Assembly (NCBI GenBank): GCA_003650925.1
Contig: QMSP01000021.1
Span: 1 to 34,264 of the forward strand
Length of the DNA stretch: 34,264 nucleotides
Source: Thermoprotei archaeon
Lineage (GTDB): Archaea; Thermoproteota; Thermoprotei; QMSL01
Direction of reading: 5' to 3'
Shown: in pieces, positions 4,391 to 31,882 of the stretch
How the letters are laid out: every line of letters begins with the position of its first letter
Numbering within the stretch: position 1 is the first letter of the stretch
Program-made: the position numbers and the translations under genes
The notes under the pieces: model-generated
Told to the model about the DNA's origin: nothing
Seen by the model: the letters and a program-made list of their open reading frames with translations, nothing else
Databases searched by the model: none

Positions 4391-5536
4391 ATGGGCGGAA
4401 AACAGTATTTGAGAATACTTCTGCCACTAATCATACTCCCAACCCTCCTCTACATCAGCCTTGCATGGCCAGCACTACTATACGGCATGTTTTACTACGC
4501 ACTCTCAAGTGGAAGAGAGTTCCTGAATGAGGTAAAGAACTCCGTCAGTCTCCTCTTCCGAGACAGCCTTGACTATCTAGGCGTAAACATAGTGCTCTCG
4601 CTGGAAGTCCATATATTCACTCTAGCAGTGCTAGCAGTATTTCGTGCTCTTCGCCCAGGAAAAGGTATCAAGGCTGAGATAGAGGACGCAGGATCTCTTC
4701 CGCTCAATCCGTCCTCCTATCTATCCCTCGCTTTGCTCAAGCACTCAATAATGATGGCCTATGACCTAAAGACTATCCTGAGCTTAAGGAAGTACGGCAA
4801 GTCAAGACCACATAGGAGAGTTAGACTCGACGAATCCTATCTGCTGGGCTCTCTCATGATAGGAGTAATAGCATCGACTATACTACTGCTCACATACGAA
4901 GTCAACTACGTGCTCTTCTGGAATGTGTTCCTACTCTACCTCCTGGTCATAATAGTGTTTATGATGGCCTTGGGAAGGGTCAGCATTCTGGATGAGGCAG
5001 CCGGTAAAAGCCTAGGTCTATGGCACCGAGGTAATAGCTTGATAGCCACCTATGGCACAGGTGAGCTTGTTGAGATGAGGATTGGAGAGAGGACTGCTAT
5101 ATTAGCGCTCTCTCTCAGTACAGGCATGTGTGGAGTGCTTACGACTCTAGGCTCAGTGCTCCTAAGAGCACCGCTAACCTTCACTTTAGTACCTATAACC
5201 TTCGACATGTTATCCGTCCTAACAGCCCTCATGGAGTTTCAAGGATTGAGATCTATTCCAAGGATGTTCTGGGACATGAAGATGTTAGGCATGAGCATAT
5301 TGACAATGTCTCTCGTCATATCTTGGGGAGTCTATCTGAGTGGCGTCGTCTACTACATATCAAAAATCCTTGAACTCTCAATATCAACGAACATGATAGT
5401 GACCATGGTCTCGTGTATGTGGATGATAATAGCGATAACCTCAAGCGCTCTCCTAAGGAATCTCTCTCCAACGAAGAGAGTAGCTCTACTAGGAGCTTTG
5501 CTCACTCTTATCCCGCCTTTGTTGTTATTTCTATGA
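4391..5536 (+). CDS. Unrecognised multi-pass membrane protein
   Basis: I do not recognise this family. The protein of about 381 residues has roughly eight hydrophobic segments: one at the N-terminus (ILLPLIILPTLLYISLAW), one near residue 65-90, a pair at about 150-200 and a cluster over the last 150 residues. A basic cytosolic-looking loop (RKYGKSRPHRRVR) follows the second segment. There is no ATPase motif, HExxH or other catalytic signature. The segment LDEAAGKSLGLWHRGNSLIA between helices is the most distinctive soluble part. ATG 4391 is preferred because AAGGTAG lies at 4379-4385; GTG 4376 is an alternative. Its 3' end overlaps the converging GH99-like gene fragment by six bases. A transporter permease or a membrane regulator would both fit. 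Confidence 0.7.
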   Translation: MGGKQYLRILLPLIILPTLLYISLAWPALLYGMFYYALSSGREFLNEVKNSVSLLFRDSLDYLGVNIVLSLEVHIFTLAVLAVFRALRPGKGIKAEIEDAGSLPLNPSSYLSLALLKHSIMMAYDLKTILSLRKYGKSRPHRRVRLDESYLLGSLMIGVIASTILLLTYEVNYVLFWNVFLLYLLVIIVFMMALGRVSILDEAAGKSLGLWHRGNSLIATYGTGELVEMRIGERTAILALSLSTGMCGVLTTLGSVLLRAPLTFTLVPITFDMLSVLTALMEFQGLRSIPRMFWDMKMLGMSILTMSLVISWGVYLSGVVYYISKILELSISTNMIVTMVSCMWMIIAITSSALLRNLSPTKRVALLGALLTLIPPLLLFL

Positions 5537-6334
5537 TTTCTTGAACTCCTCTACCCACCTTGCAGTCATGTTTAGGTACTGAAATCCATATTCGACACTA
5601 GGCTCTATCTCAGTTCCTTCATGCCATTCATTCCAGCTGGTTACTACGATCCACTCTGCTCCACTCTCAATGGCTATCTCCCAAGTCATGTTGTATATCC
5701 TTCCACCTTCTCTCTCAAGGAATAGCCCCGGCTTTCTAATGATCCTGTCATCATATCCTGGCATGACTGTAGCTACAAATATGCAGTTATATTTCTTAGC
5801 TATGTCTGCCATCCTCTTGTATGTTGTTCTTAGCGTGTCTCCACTCTTGTCTGCTAGCAAAAGGGGTAGTGGATTATAGATATGTATTCCATGAAATATC
5901 TTCGCATATGCTTTCTTCGTGGTGTCAGCTATCAGTATGACCTTAATATCCTCTCTCCACAGCCCTTTGAGAACTGCCTCCCAGAACGAGACATCTCGGC
6001 TCTCAACGGCGTATATGAAGACTACAGGGGTGTTATTTAGCTTGAGGAAAGCTCTACTCCCACCATACTCCTTGACTATATAAGCCAGCTCTCTACATAC
6101 CTTACCTACGTTTTCAGCAAGACCAAGGGTTTCATAGTATATTGTGAGCTTTACCTTGAGGTCATGATCCTCAGCTATATTCAACATCTTCCTGAAGACT
6201 TTATCCTCGAAGCTATTGATGCCCCACCATGAACATATAAACACATCTATGCCTGCTTTTTCAGCCCATCTGAAGTGTGTCAATAGAGTCTTCTCATCAT
6301 TACAATCATATGGACCTAGTATGGGGTAGAAACC
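5531..6334 (-). pseudogene. GH99-like glycoside hydrolase, 3' fragment (split by TnpB element)
   Basis: This open frame carries the C-terminal three quarters of a GH99-like (endo-mannosidase/WbsX-type) protein. Reading from the element edge it begins GFYPILGPYDCND, then GIDVFICSWWG, and ends with the family signature SWNEWHEGTEIEP, whose glutamates are the expected acid residues. The reading frame runs straight out of the tnpB stop codon, so there is no start codon of its own at the natural position; the first usable start would be TTG 6283, well inside the domain. The missing N-terminal part lies at 7742-8008 on the same strand. The two parts together would make a protein of about 355 residues. 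The fragment is unlikely to be active unless the element excises. Confidence 0.82.
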
Positions 6335-7387
6335 TTAGATTATAGTTTTCTGTATCAATTCGTATCCTTTTATACCTCTCAGGGCTATCAGGTATGCTGA
6401 TGCTGTATGAATGTCAATCCTCCTCGATAAGGCTATGCCTATTGCATCAATTGAAGTATATACTGGATTTACTTTAATGAGTGTACCACTGACTTTCTTA
6501 ATGAGCATCTCCATCTGCTGTTGATATTCTCTAACACTCCACTTTCTGATTTTACCTCTGATTTTATTTGGCTTGGATAGGTCCTCAATAACGAAATACT
6601 TCACGCCATGTGAAACTGCATACTCTACGAGCTTTGAGAGAGCTTCTTGTCTAATCGCTCTTGACTTATCTTTGTCATAGTTAACTACTTCAGGGAAGCG
6701 GATGTTTCTCACATCTCTAATTCTTCCATAGGAATCGACAATAACCATGTTTATTCTATCAACATTAAAGTCGAAACCAGCATAGAATCTATTCCTTGGC
6801 TTCACTTTAACTCTCTTACTAAAGTACTTTACATATAAACTAACTGGGATGTTGAGGTATAGGTAAAGTTTCTCCCTAAATACTCTTCTCCAGTCTTCTT
6901 TCTTACCTTTGAGCTTTATCGTTACACCAGCACCATAACTGTAACTACCGCTAATTAACTCTCGCATCAAGGGAAGGTACTTTTTACCAAACCTAACACC
7001 TACCTCAATCCATTCGTGTTTACCACTAGCGTGAGGTATTTTGATAAGTACTTTGTCTGTGCTTACCAATCTAATGTTGCGATTACTTTTCTCGCACCTA
7101 GCACCAACAGAATACAGTAGTGGTTTCCTAAGCCTTATTTTTGATTGCTCCTTATACAGCCTAGCAACTTTAATTGCTGAGTAGGCATACCAAGCATTAG
7201 ATAGGATTCTGGTCAACCTTCTCTTTACCTCGCTTTCACTAAGTTTCTCTCTAAAGAGGAGTGAGTGACCAAGCTCAACAGCATCTCTAAATTGCCTCAT
7301 TATAGTAAGTAATCTAGCTAGGGAAACTTCATCATTAAGAATCAGCTTGCCAACTACTGTAGCTTTTTCTTCACCTTCTCTAGCCAT
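6335..7387 (-). CDS. tnpB: TnpB, RNA-guided nuclease of IS605/IS607-type element
   Basis: The 350-residue protein has the RuvC-like nuclease triad: D206 in YAGFDFNVDRIN, E268 in FVIEDLSKP and D325 in DIHTASAYLIALRG. The usual TnpB zinc ribbon of four cysteines between E268 and D325 is absent, so this belongs to a short archaeal subgroup. TnpB proteins cut DNA next to a short target motif under guidance of an RNA from the element's end. ATG 7387 has a strong ribosome site (AGGAGG about 8 bases upstream). The gene overlaps the preceding small gene by 34 bases, suggesting translational coupling. The stop codon is essentially at the element edge, so any guide scaffold must lie inside the 3' coding part. 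Confidence 0.88.
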   Translation of the reverse strand: MAREGEEKATVVGKLILNDEVSLARLLTIMRQFRDAVELGHSLLFREKLSESEVKRRLTRILSNAWYAYSAIKVARLYKEQSKIRLRKPLLYSVGARCEKSNRNIRLVSTDKVLIKIPHASGKHEWIEVGVRFGKKYLPLMRELISGSYSYGAGVTIKLKGKKEDWRRVFREKLYLYLNIPVSLYVKYFSKRVKVKPRNRFYAGFDFNVDRINMVIVDSYGRIRDVRNIRFPEVVNYDKDKSRAIRQEALSKLVEYAVSHGVKYFVIEDLSKPNKIRGKIRKWSVREYQQQMEMLIKKVSGTLIKVNPVYTSIDAIGIALSRRIDIHTASAYLIALRGIKGYELIQKTII

Positions 7388-7506
7388 AATCTAATCGCCT
7401 CCTCTAATGCTTTCTTTATAGCACCATAATATCCAAACTTCCTAACTGCGTAAACCTCAAACTCTCTCCAAAGTTCATCTGGAACTTCTACTGTTTTCCT
7501 AACCAT
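7354..7506 (-). CDS. Small ribbon-helix-helix-like protein overlapping tnpB
   Basis: A 50-residue frame beginning MVRKTVEVPDELWREFEVYA and continuing with a helix (GAIKKALEEAIRLWLEKVKKK). The pattern of a short N-terminal beta strand (RKTVEVP) followed by two amphipathic helices is that of ribbon-helix-helix DNA-binding proteins such as CopG-type repressors and antitoxins. ATG 7506 has AGGTG upstream and a TATA box about 35 bases away. It overlaps the tnpB start by 34 bases, so the two are probably co-transcribed and coupled. A likely role is repression of the element's own promoter or a partner function for TnpB; both are inference. The fold call rests on pattern only. Confidence 0.75.
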   Translation of the reverse strand: MVRKTVEVPDELWREFEVYAVRKFGYYGAIKKALEEAIRLWLEKVKKKLQ

Positions 7507-7539: not shown

Positions 7540-7548
7540 TTTATAAAA
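7540..7548 (-). promoter_or_regulatory. TATA box of the TnpB element 1 operon
   Basis: On the minus strand the sequence reads GTTTTATAAATC. Standard spacing puts the transcript start near 7517, about 11 bases before the small gene's ATG at 7506. Confidence 0.6.
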
Positions 7549-7577: not shown

Positions 7578-7731
7578 GAATTCGATGATTATTGAGGGTG
7601 ATGAATTGTTGATGAACCCCGATTACCTGAGGGTGGCTGTCCGCCGTAGGGTGGTCGGGAGGATTTTAGCCGTAATGAACCTATCCGTAGCAGATACAGA
7701 AAGATATAGCCCGCTATATGAAGCTACGGAT
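7578..7731. other. Noncoding left-end module of TnpB element 1
   Basis: This stretch between the element promoter and the hydrolase junction has no convincing gene. On the plus strand it carries GAATTCGATGA (7578-7588), AGGGTGA (7595-7601), TTGATGA (7609-7615), CTGAGG (7627-7632) and CCTATCCGTA (7680-7689). ATCCGTAGC at 7683-7691 pairs perfectly with GCTACGGAT at 7723-7731. Inside that is a second stem, ATATAGC (7704-7710) with GCTATAT (7713-7719). The same blocks recur in the same order beside the second TnpB gene. It could be a transposition end recognised as DNA hairpins, or encode a small RNA. The GATGA/CTGA blocks resemble box C/D signals, but no proper C/D RNA can be drawn. Confidence 0.55.
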
Positions 7732-7741
7732 CAGGAGAACG

Positions 7742-8008
7742 GTCATGAGAGCCTATTATCCTGTCTGTTGTAGTATCGATTATGCAATGGTCCCAGTGAA
7801 ACCATCGACCTGTAGGTCCATACTTTGAACCATACCAGGGATAGTAGAAGGCCAGTACAAGTTTTCTAGTCTTCAAGGTTTCCCTCTCGTAAGAATATGC
7901 GCTCGTATAGACTTCCTCCCTCTTTATGTAGTGAGGCAACATAGCTGTGAGCAATACTAGTATTGTTATGACCACTCCTGTGATAATCAAGACTACTGTT
8001 CTACTCAT
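7742..8008 (-). pseudogene. GH99-like glycoside hydrolase, 5' fragment
   Basis: This is the start of the hydrolase gene interrupted by the TnpB element. ATG 8008 is preceded by AGGGGAAT. The protein begins with an uncleaved-looking membrane anchor (VVLIITGVVITILVLLTAML, residues 5-24), then a short linker. It then enters the GH99-like domain with LVLAFYYPWYGSKYGPTG and RWFHWDHCIID, breaking off after IIGSHD. The remaining frame of five codons into the element ends at a stop at 7724-7726. In intact form the enzyme would be anchored outside the cell and act on a mannan- or glucan-like polysaccharide. The rest of the gene is at 5531-6334. It follows the 8095-8613 gene on the same strand with an 86-base gap. 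Confidence 0.82.
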
Positions 8009-25636: not shown

Positions 25637-25700
25637 TGGCATGTCGCACATAGAGTTCTGTCATCATAATTATCCAAAGCTACTTTGCCTAACGAAACTG

Positions 25701-26804
25701 TTAAACGTTTGATAGACAACTATAGATATTGATAACTCTTAACCCTCTTAGGGCTATGACGTATGCACTAGCTGTATGTCTATCTAACCCAAGTTTTTTA
25801 TGAATTTTTATAGCGTATCTAGTAGTCTTAAATGGAGGAACTAATATTATTGTAAAATCATGCTTTAGTCCTATTAAGATAGCATGTTCCAACATCCCCC
25901 TCTTAGCAAATCTAGTAATCTTCCTATTAGCAGTAGGATTGATAAGATACTTTCTACTCTTTATTTGAGAGAGATTTTCAAATGCTAAGTAGTCAACACC
26001 TATCTCTCTGGCGTACCTTATTAGCTTTGAGAGCGCTTTAAGTCTTAAGTATTTAGCCCTATCCCTTGATATACCTTGTAGTGTAGCTTCTTCAAACCAC
26101 TCTGTTCTTGTAGCAATAATATTCCTCTTTCCATCTATTACTGCTATATTTATCCTATCTGAGTTGAGGTCAAAGCCAGCTATAAGCCCATACCCCTTAG
26201 GCTTTGGTTTGGAGAAATATTTTAAGTATAGCCATAATGGCACTTGGATATGAATTCTTGGGTATTTTCTAAAACTTATAATGGCACCATAGCTCTCCTG
26301 CTTTTGGCTAGATAGCTTACAGAGTTCACAGAGTAGCGGTAGGTATCTTTCTCCAAAGTATGCCTTTGCGCTAACCCAAGTCCTATCCCAAGGATAACGT
26401 ATCTTGACTAGGAAGAAATCAGCATAGGGAGTAAGCTTAATGTTACGATTTCCTTTCTGTAGTCGTTCTCCTCTAGAGGCTATCCAAAATCTTCTTATGT
26501 GAGCTATCTCTCCTTTATTAGCTTTTAAGCCCTCCCAGATGAGCTTAGCCTGCTTGTAGGCTGTTTCAAGATACATATAGTTTGGGATTATATCATAGAG
26601 TTTCTTAGTAGCAGTTTTATGATTAGTATTCTGCTTTACATACTTAAGCATGGCTCTTACAGCTTTAGAATATGCTCTTGCTAATCTGCATAGCTTCATA
26701 TAATCTTGAGGACTCTCTACTATAAGCTTGCCATTAATAGTTATGGCTTTAATTATTTCATTAGCATTCTCTCTAGTAATTATTTTAGTTGAGTTCTTCA
26801 ACAA
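25701..26804 (-). CDS. tnpB: TnpB, RNA-guided nuclease (short archaeal type)
   Basis: The 367-residue protein has the RuvC triad D212 (IAGFDLNSDRIN), E276 (LAFENLSQ) and D341 (LDRHTASAYVIALRG). As in the first TnpB, the four-cysteine zinc ribbon between E276 and D341 is lacking, replaced by a basic stretch. The two copies differ widely in the N-terminal half, so they are not recent duplicates. The start is TTG 26804, strongly supported by AGAGGTGA about six bases upstream. It overlaps the preceding small gene by 20 bases. It should cut DNA with an element-encoded guide RNA, probably to keep the element in place. Confidence 0.86.
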   Translation of the reverse strand: MLKNSTKIITRENANEIIKAITINGKLIVESPQDYMKLCRLARAYSKAVRAMLKYVKQNTNHKTATKKLYDIIPNYMYLETAYKQAKLIWEGLKANKGEIAHIRRFWIASRGERLQKGNRNIKLTPYADFFLVKIRYPWDRTWVSAKAYFGERYLPLLCELCKLSSQKQESYGAIISFRKYPRIHIQVPLWLYLKYFSKPKPKGYGLIAGFDLNSDRINIAVIDGKRNIIATRTEWFEEATLQGISRDRAKYLRLKALSKLIRYAREIGVDYLAFENLSQIKSRKYLINPTANRKITRFAKRGMLEHAILIGLKHDFTIILVPPFKTTRYAIKIHKKLGLDRHTASAYVIALRGLRVINIYSCLSNV

Positions 26805-26943
26805 TTACAATCACCTCTTTATTAACAAGATTTAGCTCTTCAACTTTCTTTCTAAGATGTACTGGTATAAAGATAGCATATCTTCTACCACTAGCATCAA
26901 AGCCAGCTTTAGCAATCCTACCTTTAAATACTAGCCTCGCCAT
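26785..26943 (-). CDS. Small AbrB/SpoVT-like protein overlapping tnpB
   Basis: A 52-residue frame starting MARLVFKGRIAKAGFDASGR and ending with VNKEVIVIVEELN. The string FIPVHLRKKVEELN resembles the swapped-hairpin AbrB/SpoVT DNA-binding fold of antitoxin-type regulators (strand, proline, helix, strand). It overlaps the tnpB start by 20 bases and follows a TATA box at 26972-26983, giving a leader of about seven bases. It occupies the same place as the ribbon-helix-helix gene of element 1 but is unrelated in sequence. It probably regulates the element; direct evidence is lacking. Confidence 0.68.
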   Translation of the reverse strand: MARLVFKGRIAKAGFDASGRRYAIFIPVHLRKKVEELNLVNKEVIVIVEELN

Positions 26944-26971: not shown

Positions 26972-26983
26972 AAACTTATAAGC
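26972..26983 (-). promoter_or_regulatory. TATA box of TnpB element 2 operon
   Basis: Minus-strand GCTTATAAGTTT predicts transcription from about 26950, just before ATG 26943 of the small gene. Confidence 0.55.
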
Positions 26984-27008: not shown

Positions 27009-27187
27009 GAACTCGATGAACCTATGGGAGGGTGACATTAGATGAGGCTTTACTTAGCCGAGGAAAGTCATACGGATGGAATGACCGAATGGGACTAATG
27101 AAGTATGGCTTTCGTAAGCTGGGTAAAGCTGAAGATATGGGGGATGAAGCCGATAAAAGTCCAATGAAGGCAGGACCCCTATCCGTA
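27009..27187 (+). ncRNA. Structured noncoding region, possible RNase P-like or element-borne RNA
   Basis: No gene fits here. Plus-strand features in order: GAACTCGATGA (27009-27019), AGGGTGA (27029-27035), GATGA (27041-27045), a small hairpin GGCT/AGCC (27046-27059), GAGGAAAGTC (27060-27069), TACGGAT (27071-27077), GATGAAGCCG (27143-27152), GGCAGGACCCC (27169-27179) and CCTATCCGTA (27178-27187). TACGGAT pairs perfectly with ATCCGTA at the end, closing a 117-base domain. GAGGAAAGTC after a hairpin is the hallmark of RNase P RNA conserved region I, and the late blocks weakly recall regions IV and V, but the near-invariant ACAGAA is not matched. The first and last blocks recur beside TnpB element 1. 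RNase P RNA is possible but not shown. Confidence 0.4.
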
Positions 27188-27200
27188 ACTTTTAAATATG
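27188..27200 (+). promoter_or_regulatory. TATA box for cysteinyl-tRNA synthetase gene
   Basis: ACTTTTAAATATG predicts transcription from about 27222, a leader of some 16 bases before GTG 27238. The short repeat AACTT/AAGTT flanks the box. Confidence 0.55.
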
Positions 27201-31021: not shown

Positions 31022-31882
31022 ATGGCAGACAAAAAGGTGATGTGGATGCTTAGGGATAATATAATTAAATACGGGGATTTACCGAAGGATAGGAGAGAGG
31101 AGGTCAAAGAAATAATCAGAAACTTAAGAGAGAGGGATTATGGCTATGGGAAGATAAGAAGGTACCTCAGAGAAAACTTCAATATCGAGATACCAGTAGC
31201 TACATTACACAAACTAGTCAGGATAAAACTGAAAGATAAGAAATGGATTAAAAAGGTGCCAATATCTTGGGAGCCAAAGAGATGCAAAGAATTAGCATAT
31301 ATTATAGGAGTAACGCTAGGAGATGGAAGCATTACAACAAAGGATTACAGATACTGTTTCCGAGTCGAAAATATTGAAGTGAGTAAAAGAGGAGAATGCC
31401 ATTATCCATTCATAGAGTGTGTAGCCATGGCATTGAGAAAACTAGGGCTAGAGCCACAAATATACAGGTACAAGAGAAGGGGCACATGGTATTGGGGAGT
31501 AATGGTGTACTCTAAGAAGTTTACACTATTCTTAAAAAGCATAAGAGAGGATCCAGAGGAAGCCAAGAAGTACATCAAGGGCTATGAAGCAGAGTTCCTC
31601 AGGGGTTTCTATGAGTCAGAGGGGTGCTTATACGCTCGGTCGCCAACAAACTACGATATAAGGATCATCAATGCAAGTAAAGAATACATTAGCTTAGCCT
31701 CTTGGGCTTTGGATAGACTAGGAATTCAGCATACAATGCATATATACAAGAGGAGGAAGCCACTAAAGGACATTATCGTAATATATATTGGAAGGGATGC
31801 TAAGAAGTTTTTGAAAATTATTAGACCAGTAATAAAATGTAGGATAGTTGATAATCCCCCAAAGGCCCCCCAAGCCCTATGA
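31022..31882 (+). CDS. Free-standing LAGLIDADG homing endonuclease
   Basis: The 286-residue protein has two LAGLIDADG motifs: AYIIGVTLGDGS (about residues 92-103) and FLRGFYESEG (about 192-201), each with an acidic residue for metal-dependent cutting. It is therefore a single-chain, two-domain endonuclease. An N-terminal helix-turn-helix (RERDYGYGKIRRYL...VPVATLHKL-like, residues 36-65) may help DNA recognition. It stands alone between two metabolic genes and is not within an rRNA, tRNA or protein gene, so it is not obviously part of an intron or intein. Codon use appears AT-richer than in neighbours (many ATA/AAA), consistent with transfer. Target site unknown. Confidence 0.87.
   Translation: MADKKVMWMLRDNIIKYGDLPKDRREEVKEIIRNLRERDYGYGKIRRYLRENFNIEIPVATLHKLVRIKLKDKKWIKKVPISWEPKRCKELAYIIGVTLGDGSITTKDYRYCFRVENIEVSKRGECHYPFIECVAMALRKLGLEPQIYRYKRRGTWYWGVMVYSKKFTLFLKSIREDPEEAKKYIKGYEAEFLRGFYESEGCLYARSPTNYDIRIINASKEYISLASWALDRLGIQHTMHIYKRRKPLKDIIVIYIGRDAKKFLKIIRPVIKCRIVDNPPKAPQAL

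Follow-up and report, generated by a model that had tools for sequence, protein, structure and literature searches.

The window, by which we mean the whole 34,264-nucleotide stretch of DNA analysed here, contains two elements of the same layout, in which a small gene and a gene for a TnpB-like protein lie on the minus strand and a structured RNA segment is located upstream of both on the plus strand (Table 1). The ORFs at positions 5531-6283 and 7724-8008 on the minus strand are the halves of a GH99-like glycoside hydrolase gene that is split by element 1, and a 286-aa ORF on the plus strand (31022-31882) is LAGLIDADG endonuclease-like by eye. No Pfam matches were obtained for the small genes at 7354-7506 and 26785-26943. 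The small genes that precede tnpB differ between elements of this subgroup (ribbon-helix-helix-like or AbrB-like, as judged by eye), and these DNA-binding-like proteins are possibly regulators of the palindromic divergent promoter.

Table 1. Positions in the window of the features assigned to elements 1 and 2.
Feature	Position	Strand	Basis
Element 1, candidate TAM GGGG, just outside the tnpB 3' end	6323..6326	+	GGG conservation over 26 elements
Element 1, left terminus (TAGAAACC...), like IS607 left ends	6327..6345	+	Sequence comparison
Element 1, TnpB-like nuclease, 350 aa, RuvC D206/E268/D325, no zinc finger	6335..7387	-	
Element 1, small gene, 50 aa, ribbon-helix-helix-like by eye, overlaps tnpB start	7354..7506	-	
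Element 1, TATA-like box TTTATAAAA for divergent RNA	7540..7548	+	Sequence; [CT]TTATA enrichment
Element 1, divergent omegaRNA-like scaffold	7578..7742	+	R1 match 7608-7742, covariation
Element 1, 5' kink-turn/kink-loop module UUC-GAU-GA-UUAUU-GA-GGG	7578..7598	+	
Element 1, hairpin H1, GAG/GUA internal loop	7617..7659	+	Covariation; homologous hairpin in IS607 RNAs
Element 1, 3' terminal hairpin (kink-turn) with C-stem CCGU/ACGG, up to element boundary	7670..7742	+	
Element 1, flank, would-be guide (length inferred from other TnpBs)	7743..7762	+	Boundary from restored glycoside-hydrolase gene
Element 2, candidate TAM GAAA of its subclass, outside element; weak, few copies	25694..25697	+	By eye
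Element 2, left terminus CTGTTAAACG	25698..25707	+	Comparison with few relatives
Element 2, TnpB-like nuclease, 367 aa	25701..26804	-	TIGR01765 above cut-off
Element 2, small gene, 52 aa, AbrB-like by eye	26785..26943	-	
Element 2, TATA-like box CTTATAAGC	26975..26983	+	Sequence
Element 2, divergent omegaRNA-like scaffold, family of element 1 RNA	27009..27179	+	R1 match 27038-27179
Element 2, terminal kink-turn hairpin, C-stem GGGG/CCCC, ends 27179	27139..27179	+	
Element 2, flank, would-be guide	27180..27199	+	Inferred from scaffold end

Neither of the two TnpB-like proteins in the window matches a Pfam family. The element 1 protein scored 26 bits against the NCBIfam model guided_TnpB, for which the cut-off is 100, and a minority of 47 relatives match TnpB-related and Cas12f2 models. 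The RuvC triad (D206, E268 and D325) is invariant in the 47 proteins, and the C-terminal zinc ribbon (CxxC...CxxC) is absent from all of the 48 genes examined. The predicted fold has a pLDDT of 79 and its nearest solved structures are those of Cas12f (E 2.4e-8), while a profile comparison with the local IS607 TnpB gave an E-value of 9e-8 over RuvC. Assignment to TldR, a nuclease-dead TnpB repressor, was rejected since the RuvC triad is intact.

A conserved RNA divergent from the TnpB-like genes

According to the earlier note on this DNA, both small-gene/tnpB pairs are preceded on the plus strand by the same blocks in the same order, and this was confirmed: GAA(T/C)TCGATGA, GAGGGTGA and GATGA follow one another in the regions that start at 7578 and 27009. 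A genome search with the first block, GAAYTCGATGA, stayed at chance level (eight matches, as compared to eight for the reversed control), and the motif alone was rejected as a signal, but four of the eight matches run on into a common structured RNA with a long variable stem, one of which (L004) is located far from any tnpB. The genome contains eight homologous tnpB genes; the same kind of segment was identified upstream on the opposite strand in seven of them, and the eighth sits at a contig end. Both window segments on the plus strand (7578-7742 and 27009-27179) are members of one conserved structured RNA family. The covariance model R1 matched the element 1 RNA, which belongs to its training set, with 126 bits, and the element 2 RNA, which is outside the training set, with 28.1 bits (E 1.5e-8 over 401 bases, filters off).

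The conserved part of the RNA includes hairpin H1 with its internal GAG/GUA loop. The 3' terminal hairpin, composed of the C-stem CCGU/ACGG, a three-base loop (GAU or AAU), GA/GA and an inner stem, reads as a textbook kink-turn. The subgroup that holds both window elements has an extra kink-turn-like module at the 5' end, where the blocks fit the kink-turn/kink-loop pattern YYC-GAU-GA-loop-GA-GGR. This pattern was recovered in 15 of 48 upstream regions, as compared to 0.8 expected from shuffles, and almost always in the form GATGA...GGG. The motifs that had been described as C/D-like boxes are explained by these kink-turns. A further block, CCTATCCGTA, had been listed as part of the shared module, with a complementary arm in each element. 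In element 1, it forms the 5' arm of the terminal hairpin and the 9-bp arm (ATCCGTAGC/GCTACGGAT) is real. In element 2, the block lies partly in the scaffold, which ends at 27179, and partly in the flank. The 7-bp arm is therefore due to chance, and the presence of the block in both elements is coincidental.

The fold is supported by covariation. Among 14 sequences, compensatory changes occur at 22 of the 34 pairs, and 94.9% of the cells are paired as compared to 78% in shuffles. The covariation score for 27 terminal hairpins was 0.538, as compared to 0.163. In an alignment of 64 sequences, which is model-aligned and so leans to R1, 33 of the 34 pairs covary (score 0.543, as compared to 0.147 when shuffled and at most 0.12 for slid partners). 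The C-stem is swapped between CCGU/ACGG, GGGU/ACCC and GCGU/ACGC, and the covariation of the 165-nt scaffold tolerates G-U pairs. With this overwhelming covariation, and with more than 100 further copies located mostly beside tnpB or in tnpB-less mini-elements, the concern raised at the outset, that the blocks might lack both further copies and covarying stems, did not materialize.

A CRISPR array of the host (contig C38 of the same genome; L178, 1979-2051) contains a 48-nt spacer that matches the element 1 RNA, with 43 of 46 bases identical to the H1 hairpin (window about 7612-7657). As read from this match, the host CRISPR system carries a spacer against the putative guide-RNA gene of element 1.

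Distribution of the RNA and the protein

In a class-wide protein search, homologues were identified in 28 of 81 genomes, and R1 RNA was identified in 23 of the 81. Of the 23 RNA-bearing genomes, 21 also hold the protein, as compared to only 7 of the 58 others (Fisher p 1.7e-11). A named survey across genome contigs recovered 134 relatives, the best 80 of which are nearly all from Thermoproteota, including Vulcanisaeta, Caldivirga, Ignisphaera, Staphylothermus, Pyrodictiaceae, Acidilobaceae, Zestosphaera and others. Among the 68 testable TnpB-like loci, i.e., those with enough upstream DNA, R1 RNA was found upstream on the opposite strand within 600 bp in 55 cases, or in 49 of 62 if the 6 training sequences are set aside. 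The median distance from the RNA to the protein match is 68 bp, and few R1 matches were obtained elsewhere in the 398 kb. No R1 match was obtained at 13 of the 68 loci, 6 of which are Caldivirga/Vulcanisaeta records, and related loci of this group show a diverged version of the RNA by eye. The diverged RNA of five Caldivirga-like loci (L074-L076, L088, L089), which was missed by R1, has another internal loop that replaces the kink-turn (CCGU-CGAGAAGG/CCGGAGAG-ACGG).

The motif [CT]TTATA is present upstream of 20 of 32 RNA loci, as compared to 4.2 in shuffles. The distances between RNAs correlate with those between proteins (Mantel r 0.42, 0 of 5000 permutations), which fits co-inheritance of the RNA and the protein and is no proof of binding.

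We also compared the RNA to families in Rfam. One RNA copy scored 34.4 bits against RF02814, Sso133 (Sulfolobus sRNA133), for which the cut-off is 44. The copies in the genome of the window fell short of E 0.001 with the Sso133 model, a value that is reached by relatives with the same arrangement. In a phylum search with the Sso133 model, 29 of the 30 fetched loci were also recovered by R1, with E-values of 0.025 or lower. Several Sso133 loci lie divergently upstream of the same TnpB-like protein family. This overlap indicates that Rfam already lists the 5' part of the RNA family as an sRNA. RNase P RNA, which was suggested by GAGGAAAGTC in element 2, was rejected as it gave no Rfam match.

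Element ends, mini-elements and relation to IS607

Joining the DNA to the left of TAGAAACC (6327) with the DNA to the right of ...GAGAACGG (7742) yields an open glycoside-hydrolase-like frame in which ...IIGSHD is followed directly by PILGPYD... Other insertions behave similarly, with SDR, MFS and winged-helix frames restored if the last G of the terminal CGG belongs to the flank. In the winged-helix case, three related genomes have the empty site TCTGGGGGTGAGG, as compared to the filled site TCTGGGG[CTGTATTC...GAGCG]GTGAGG. The restored frames and the empty sites show that the C-stem of the kink-turn is the element end to within 1 nt. In the left flanks of 26 elements, GGG at positions -3 to -1 is conserved (1.4, 1.5 and 1.7 bits), position -4 is weak (0.58 bits) and there is nothing further out, while the right flanks of these elements are near zero except for a pyrimidine at +1 (0.75 bits). 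By analogy, this geometry is TnpB-like, with a candidate TAM on one side and a would-be guide on the other. A strict IS607-style exchange of a GG core was rejected, since the empty site has one G more than a 2-nt core would allow.

Many RNA copies are without tnpB. The ten tnpB-less copies in which both ends are recognisable have a size of 215-283 bp and consist of the left end, a TATA box in many of them, and the RNA. That these copies have kept the promoter and the RNA but not the gene speaks for the RNA being the part that the element requires.

Contigs C57, C29, C65 and C8 of the same genome (L169, L170, L173 and L174) begin inside element copies. Such contig starts are expected if near-identical copies broke the assembly, and they hint at recent activity.

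Elements of the window type contain no serine-recombinase tnpA, but separate copies are located elsewhere in the genome, which encodes four serine recombinases of TnpA size. Such recombinases are also present in many relatives; no matches were obtained in G008, G011, G013 and G015, which are incomplete genomes with both protein and RNA. A Y1 transposase was rejected as the mover, with none found in the genome of the window and one in 11 of 81 genomes of the class. Four relatives (L308, L313, L316 and L318) have an IS607-type pair of tnpA and a tnpB of roughly 437-458 aa, and homologous parts of the RNA lie in sense orientation at the 3' end of these tnpB genes. Matches to H1 were obtained in three IS607 elements (E 1.5e-5 to 5.5e-4), with a weak one in L318, and matches to the terminal hairpin in three, with ...AAACG(G) as the last bases of the element; the R1 match to the IS607 RNAs is split into two modest matches. 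The element ends are also in common with the four IS607 elements, as judged by eye, with flanking GGG followed by CAGAAA... on the left and ...ACGG as the last bases on the right. Given the homologous RNA and the similar termini, the most plausible reading of the divergent RNA is that of an IS607-type omegaRNA, with tnpB in inverted orientation with respect to the element ends.

Interpretation and comparison with known systems

We consider the RNA, with a probability of roughly 0.8, to be the omegaRNA (reRNA) of an IS607-derived, tnpA-less mobile element, encoded by a gene of its own that is divergent from a diverged TnpB without zinc finger. The idea put forward in the earlier note, of a small RNA with C/D-like boxes that is read from the opposite strand and provides a scaffold elsewhere than at the usual 3' end, with a presumed guide role, has the anatomy on its side: the kink-turns account for the boxes, the scaffold stops at the element end, and IS607 relatives have the RNA in the canonical place. 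The RNA would be transcribed from the TATA box into the flank, and the guide would consist of 16-20 nt of this flank. The TnpB-like protein encoded next to the RNA would use it as guide, possibly together with L7Ae bound to the kink-turns, and protein and RNA together would cut the element-free donor site next to a GGG TAM, whereupon repair would restore the element. An IS607-type serine TnpA would move the element in trans, and the tnpB-less mini-elements would use the protein in trans. Both the guide activity and the partnership with the adjacent protein are put forward in this conditional sense; we infer the latter from linkage, and the IS607 TnpB could be the partner nuclease instead or as well. 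Points that speak against our reading are the missing zinc ribbon and the low guided_TnpB score of the protein, the 13 loci that gave no R1 match, the split and modest R1 matches to the IS607 RNAs, the comparison of IS607 left ends by eye in four elements, and the few relatives behind the TAM and left end of element 2.

It is conceivable that the IS607 TnpB (about 437 aa) serves the divergent omegaRNA in trans while the adjacent TnpB-like protein has another role. The homologous IS607 RNA and ends, the four serine recombinases of the genome and the many RNA elements without any TnpB-like gene would agree with such an arrangement, but the RNA is tightly linked to the adjacent protein, with distances that co-vary, the protein keeps its active site, and the four incomplete genomes mentioned above have protein and RNA without a serine recombinase match. 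We therefore consider service by the IS607 TnpB unlikely. An RNA that acts in the regulatory or antisense control of transposition, with no guide, is very unlikely, although the kink-turns resemble L7Ae sites and transposon-derived antisense RNAs have been reported in Sulfolobus (PMC3674436), because the RNA does not overlap with tnpB, its 3' terminus falls on the element end and a homologue occupies the omegaRNA position of IS607.

The terminal hairpin at the element end and the TATA boxes could also reflect a transposon end structure recognised by the transposase at the DNA level, or a promoter remnant, without an RNA function. The earlier note had allowed for a DNA end hairpin or promoter remnant of this kind, which finds no support in the 165-nt structured scaffold with its G-U-tolerant covariation, and the homology to the transcribed-sense omegaRNA region as well as the inclusion of the Rfam sRNA Sso133 in the family make it highly improbable. 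We give practically no credence to a box C/D or other housekeeping sRNA located near tnpB by chance: the GATGA motifs are C/D-like, but the best Rfam match to a box C/D sRNA, sR14, has only 14.4 bits with a cut-off of 38, and the RNA is confined within the element boundaries, occurs in many copies and has a different fold, so that boundaries and homology already contradict this explanation.

The known guide RNAs of TnpB correspond to the 3' end of the gene that encodes the nuclease, and this couples the supply of guide to the mRNA of the nuclease. With a divergent gene and a separate promoter, the guide would become independent of that mRNA, as it is with CRISPR arrays, and such an arrangement is one way in which guide and nuclease can end up as separate genes. 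On balance, we lean towards a widespread archaeal TnpB branch in which an independently transcribed guide gene is divergent from a zinc-finger-less nuclease and contains kink-turns to which L7Ae probably binds. This would allow tnpB-less mini-elements of 215-283 bp, made up of nothing but ends, promoter and guide RNA, to spread and to be maintained by a nuclease that acts in trans. If so, the mini-elements would be among the smallest guide-carrying elements, the orphan Rfam sRNA Sso133 may have an RNA-guided role, the host protein L7Ae may have been recruited into a guided nuclease, and a compact thermophilic nuclease would be on offer. The putative divergent guide arrangement would be common to many heat-loving archaea.

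We compared the arrangement to previously described systems. The reRNA of IS607 TnpB, which is derived from RAGATH-18 (Ren et al., 2024; PMC11061315), is similar in having a kink-turn and a possible E-loop in the guide scaffold, but is located downstream of tnpB, whereas the RNA studied here, preceded by a TATA box, is encoded on the other strand upstream of an inverted tnpB; no RAGATH-18 match was obtained in the Rfam scan. In the IS200/IS605 element ISDra2, about 16 nt of flank make up the last part of the reRNA, with the TAM at the other element end (Karvelis et al., 2021; PMC8612924). The scaffold at the element end, the flank as guide and the TAM on the opposite side resemble the elements described here, but the ISDra2 reRNA consists of the tnpB 3' end and the right end on the sense strand, whereas the divergent RNA is on the other strand. 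TnpB has been reported to process its own mRNA into omegaRNA (PMC10278001), which is impossible here because the strands differ. In OMEGA systems in general, the RNA is encoded in sense orientation at the tnpB 3' end, as compared to upstream and on the opposite strand in 55 of the 68 loci. Within the open-access PMC literature, we found no description that matches an upstream, divergent or kink-turn omegaRNA; a prior description elsewhere is possible.

The Rfam model of Sso133 covers the 5' 73 nt only and has no function or element context attached to it. In Sulfolobus solfataricus, the RNA-257 paralogues are stand-alone transcripts homologous to the distal end of the transposase gene of the IS607-type element ISC1904 (Martens et al., 2013; PMC3674436). 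They are likened here by description, as stand-alone RNAs related to an IS607-type transposase gene, but they have been described as antisense regulators and are not located upstream of a TnpB-like gene. Finally, Cas12f provides the solved structures nearest to the predicted fold, but the elements described here have no CRISPR array or tracrRNA, and their guide would come from the element flank.
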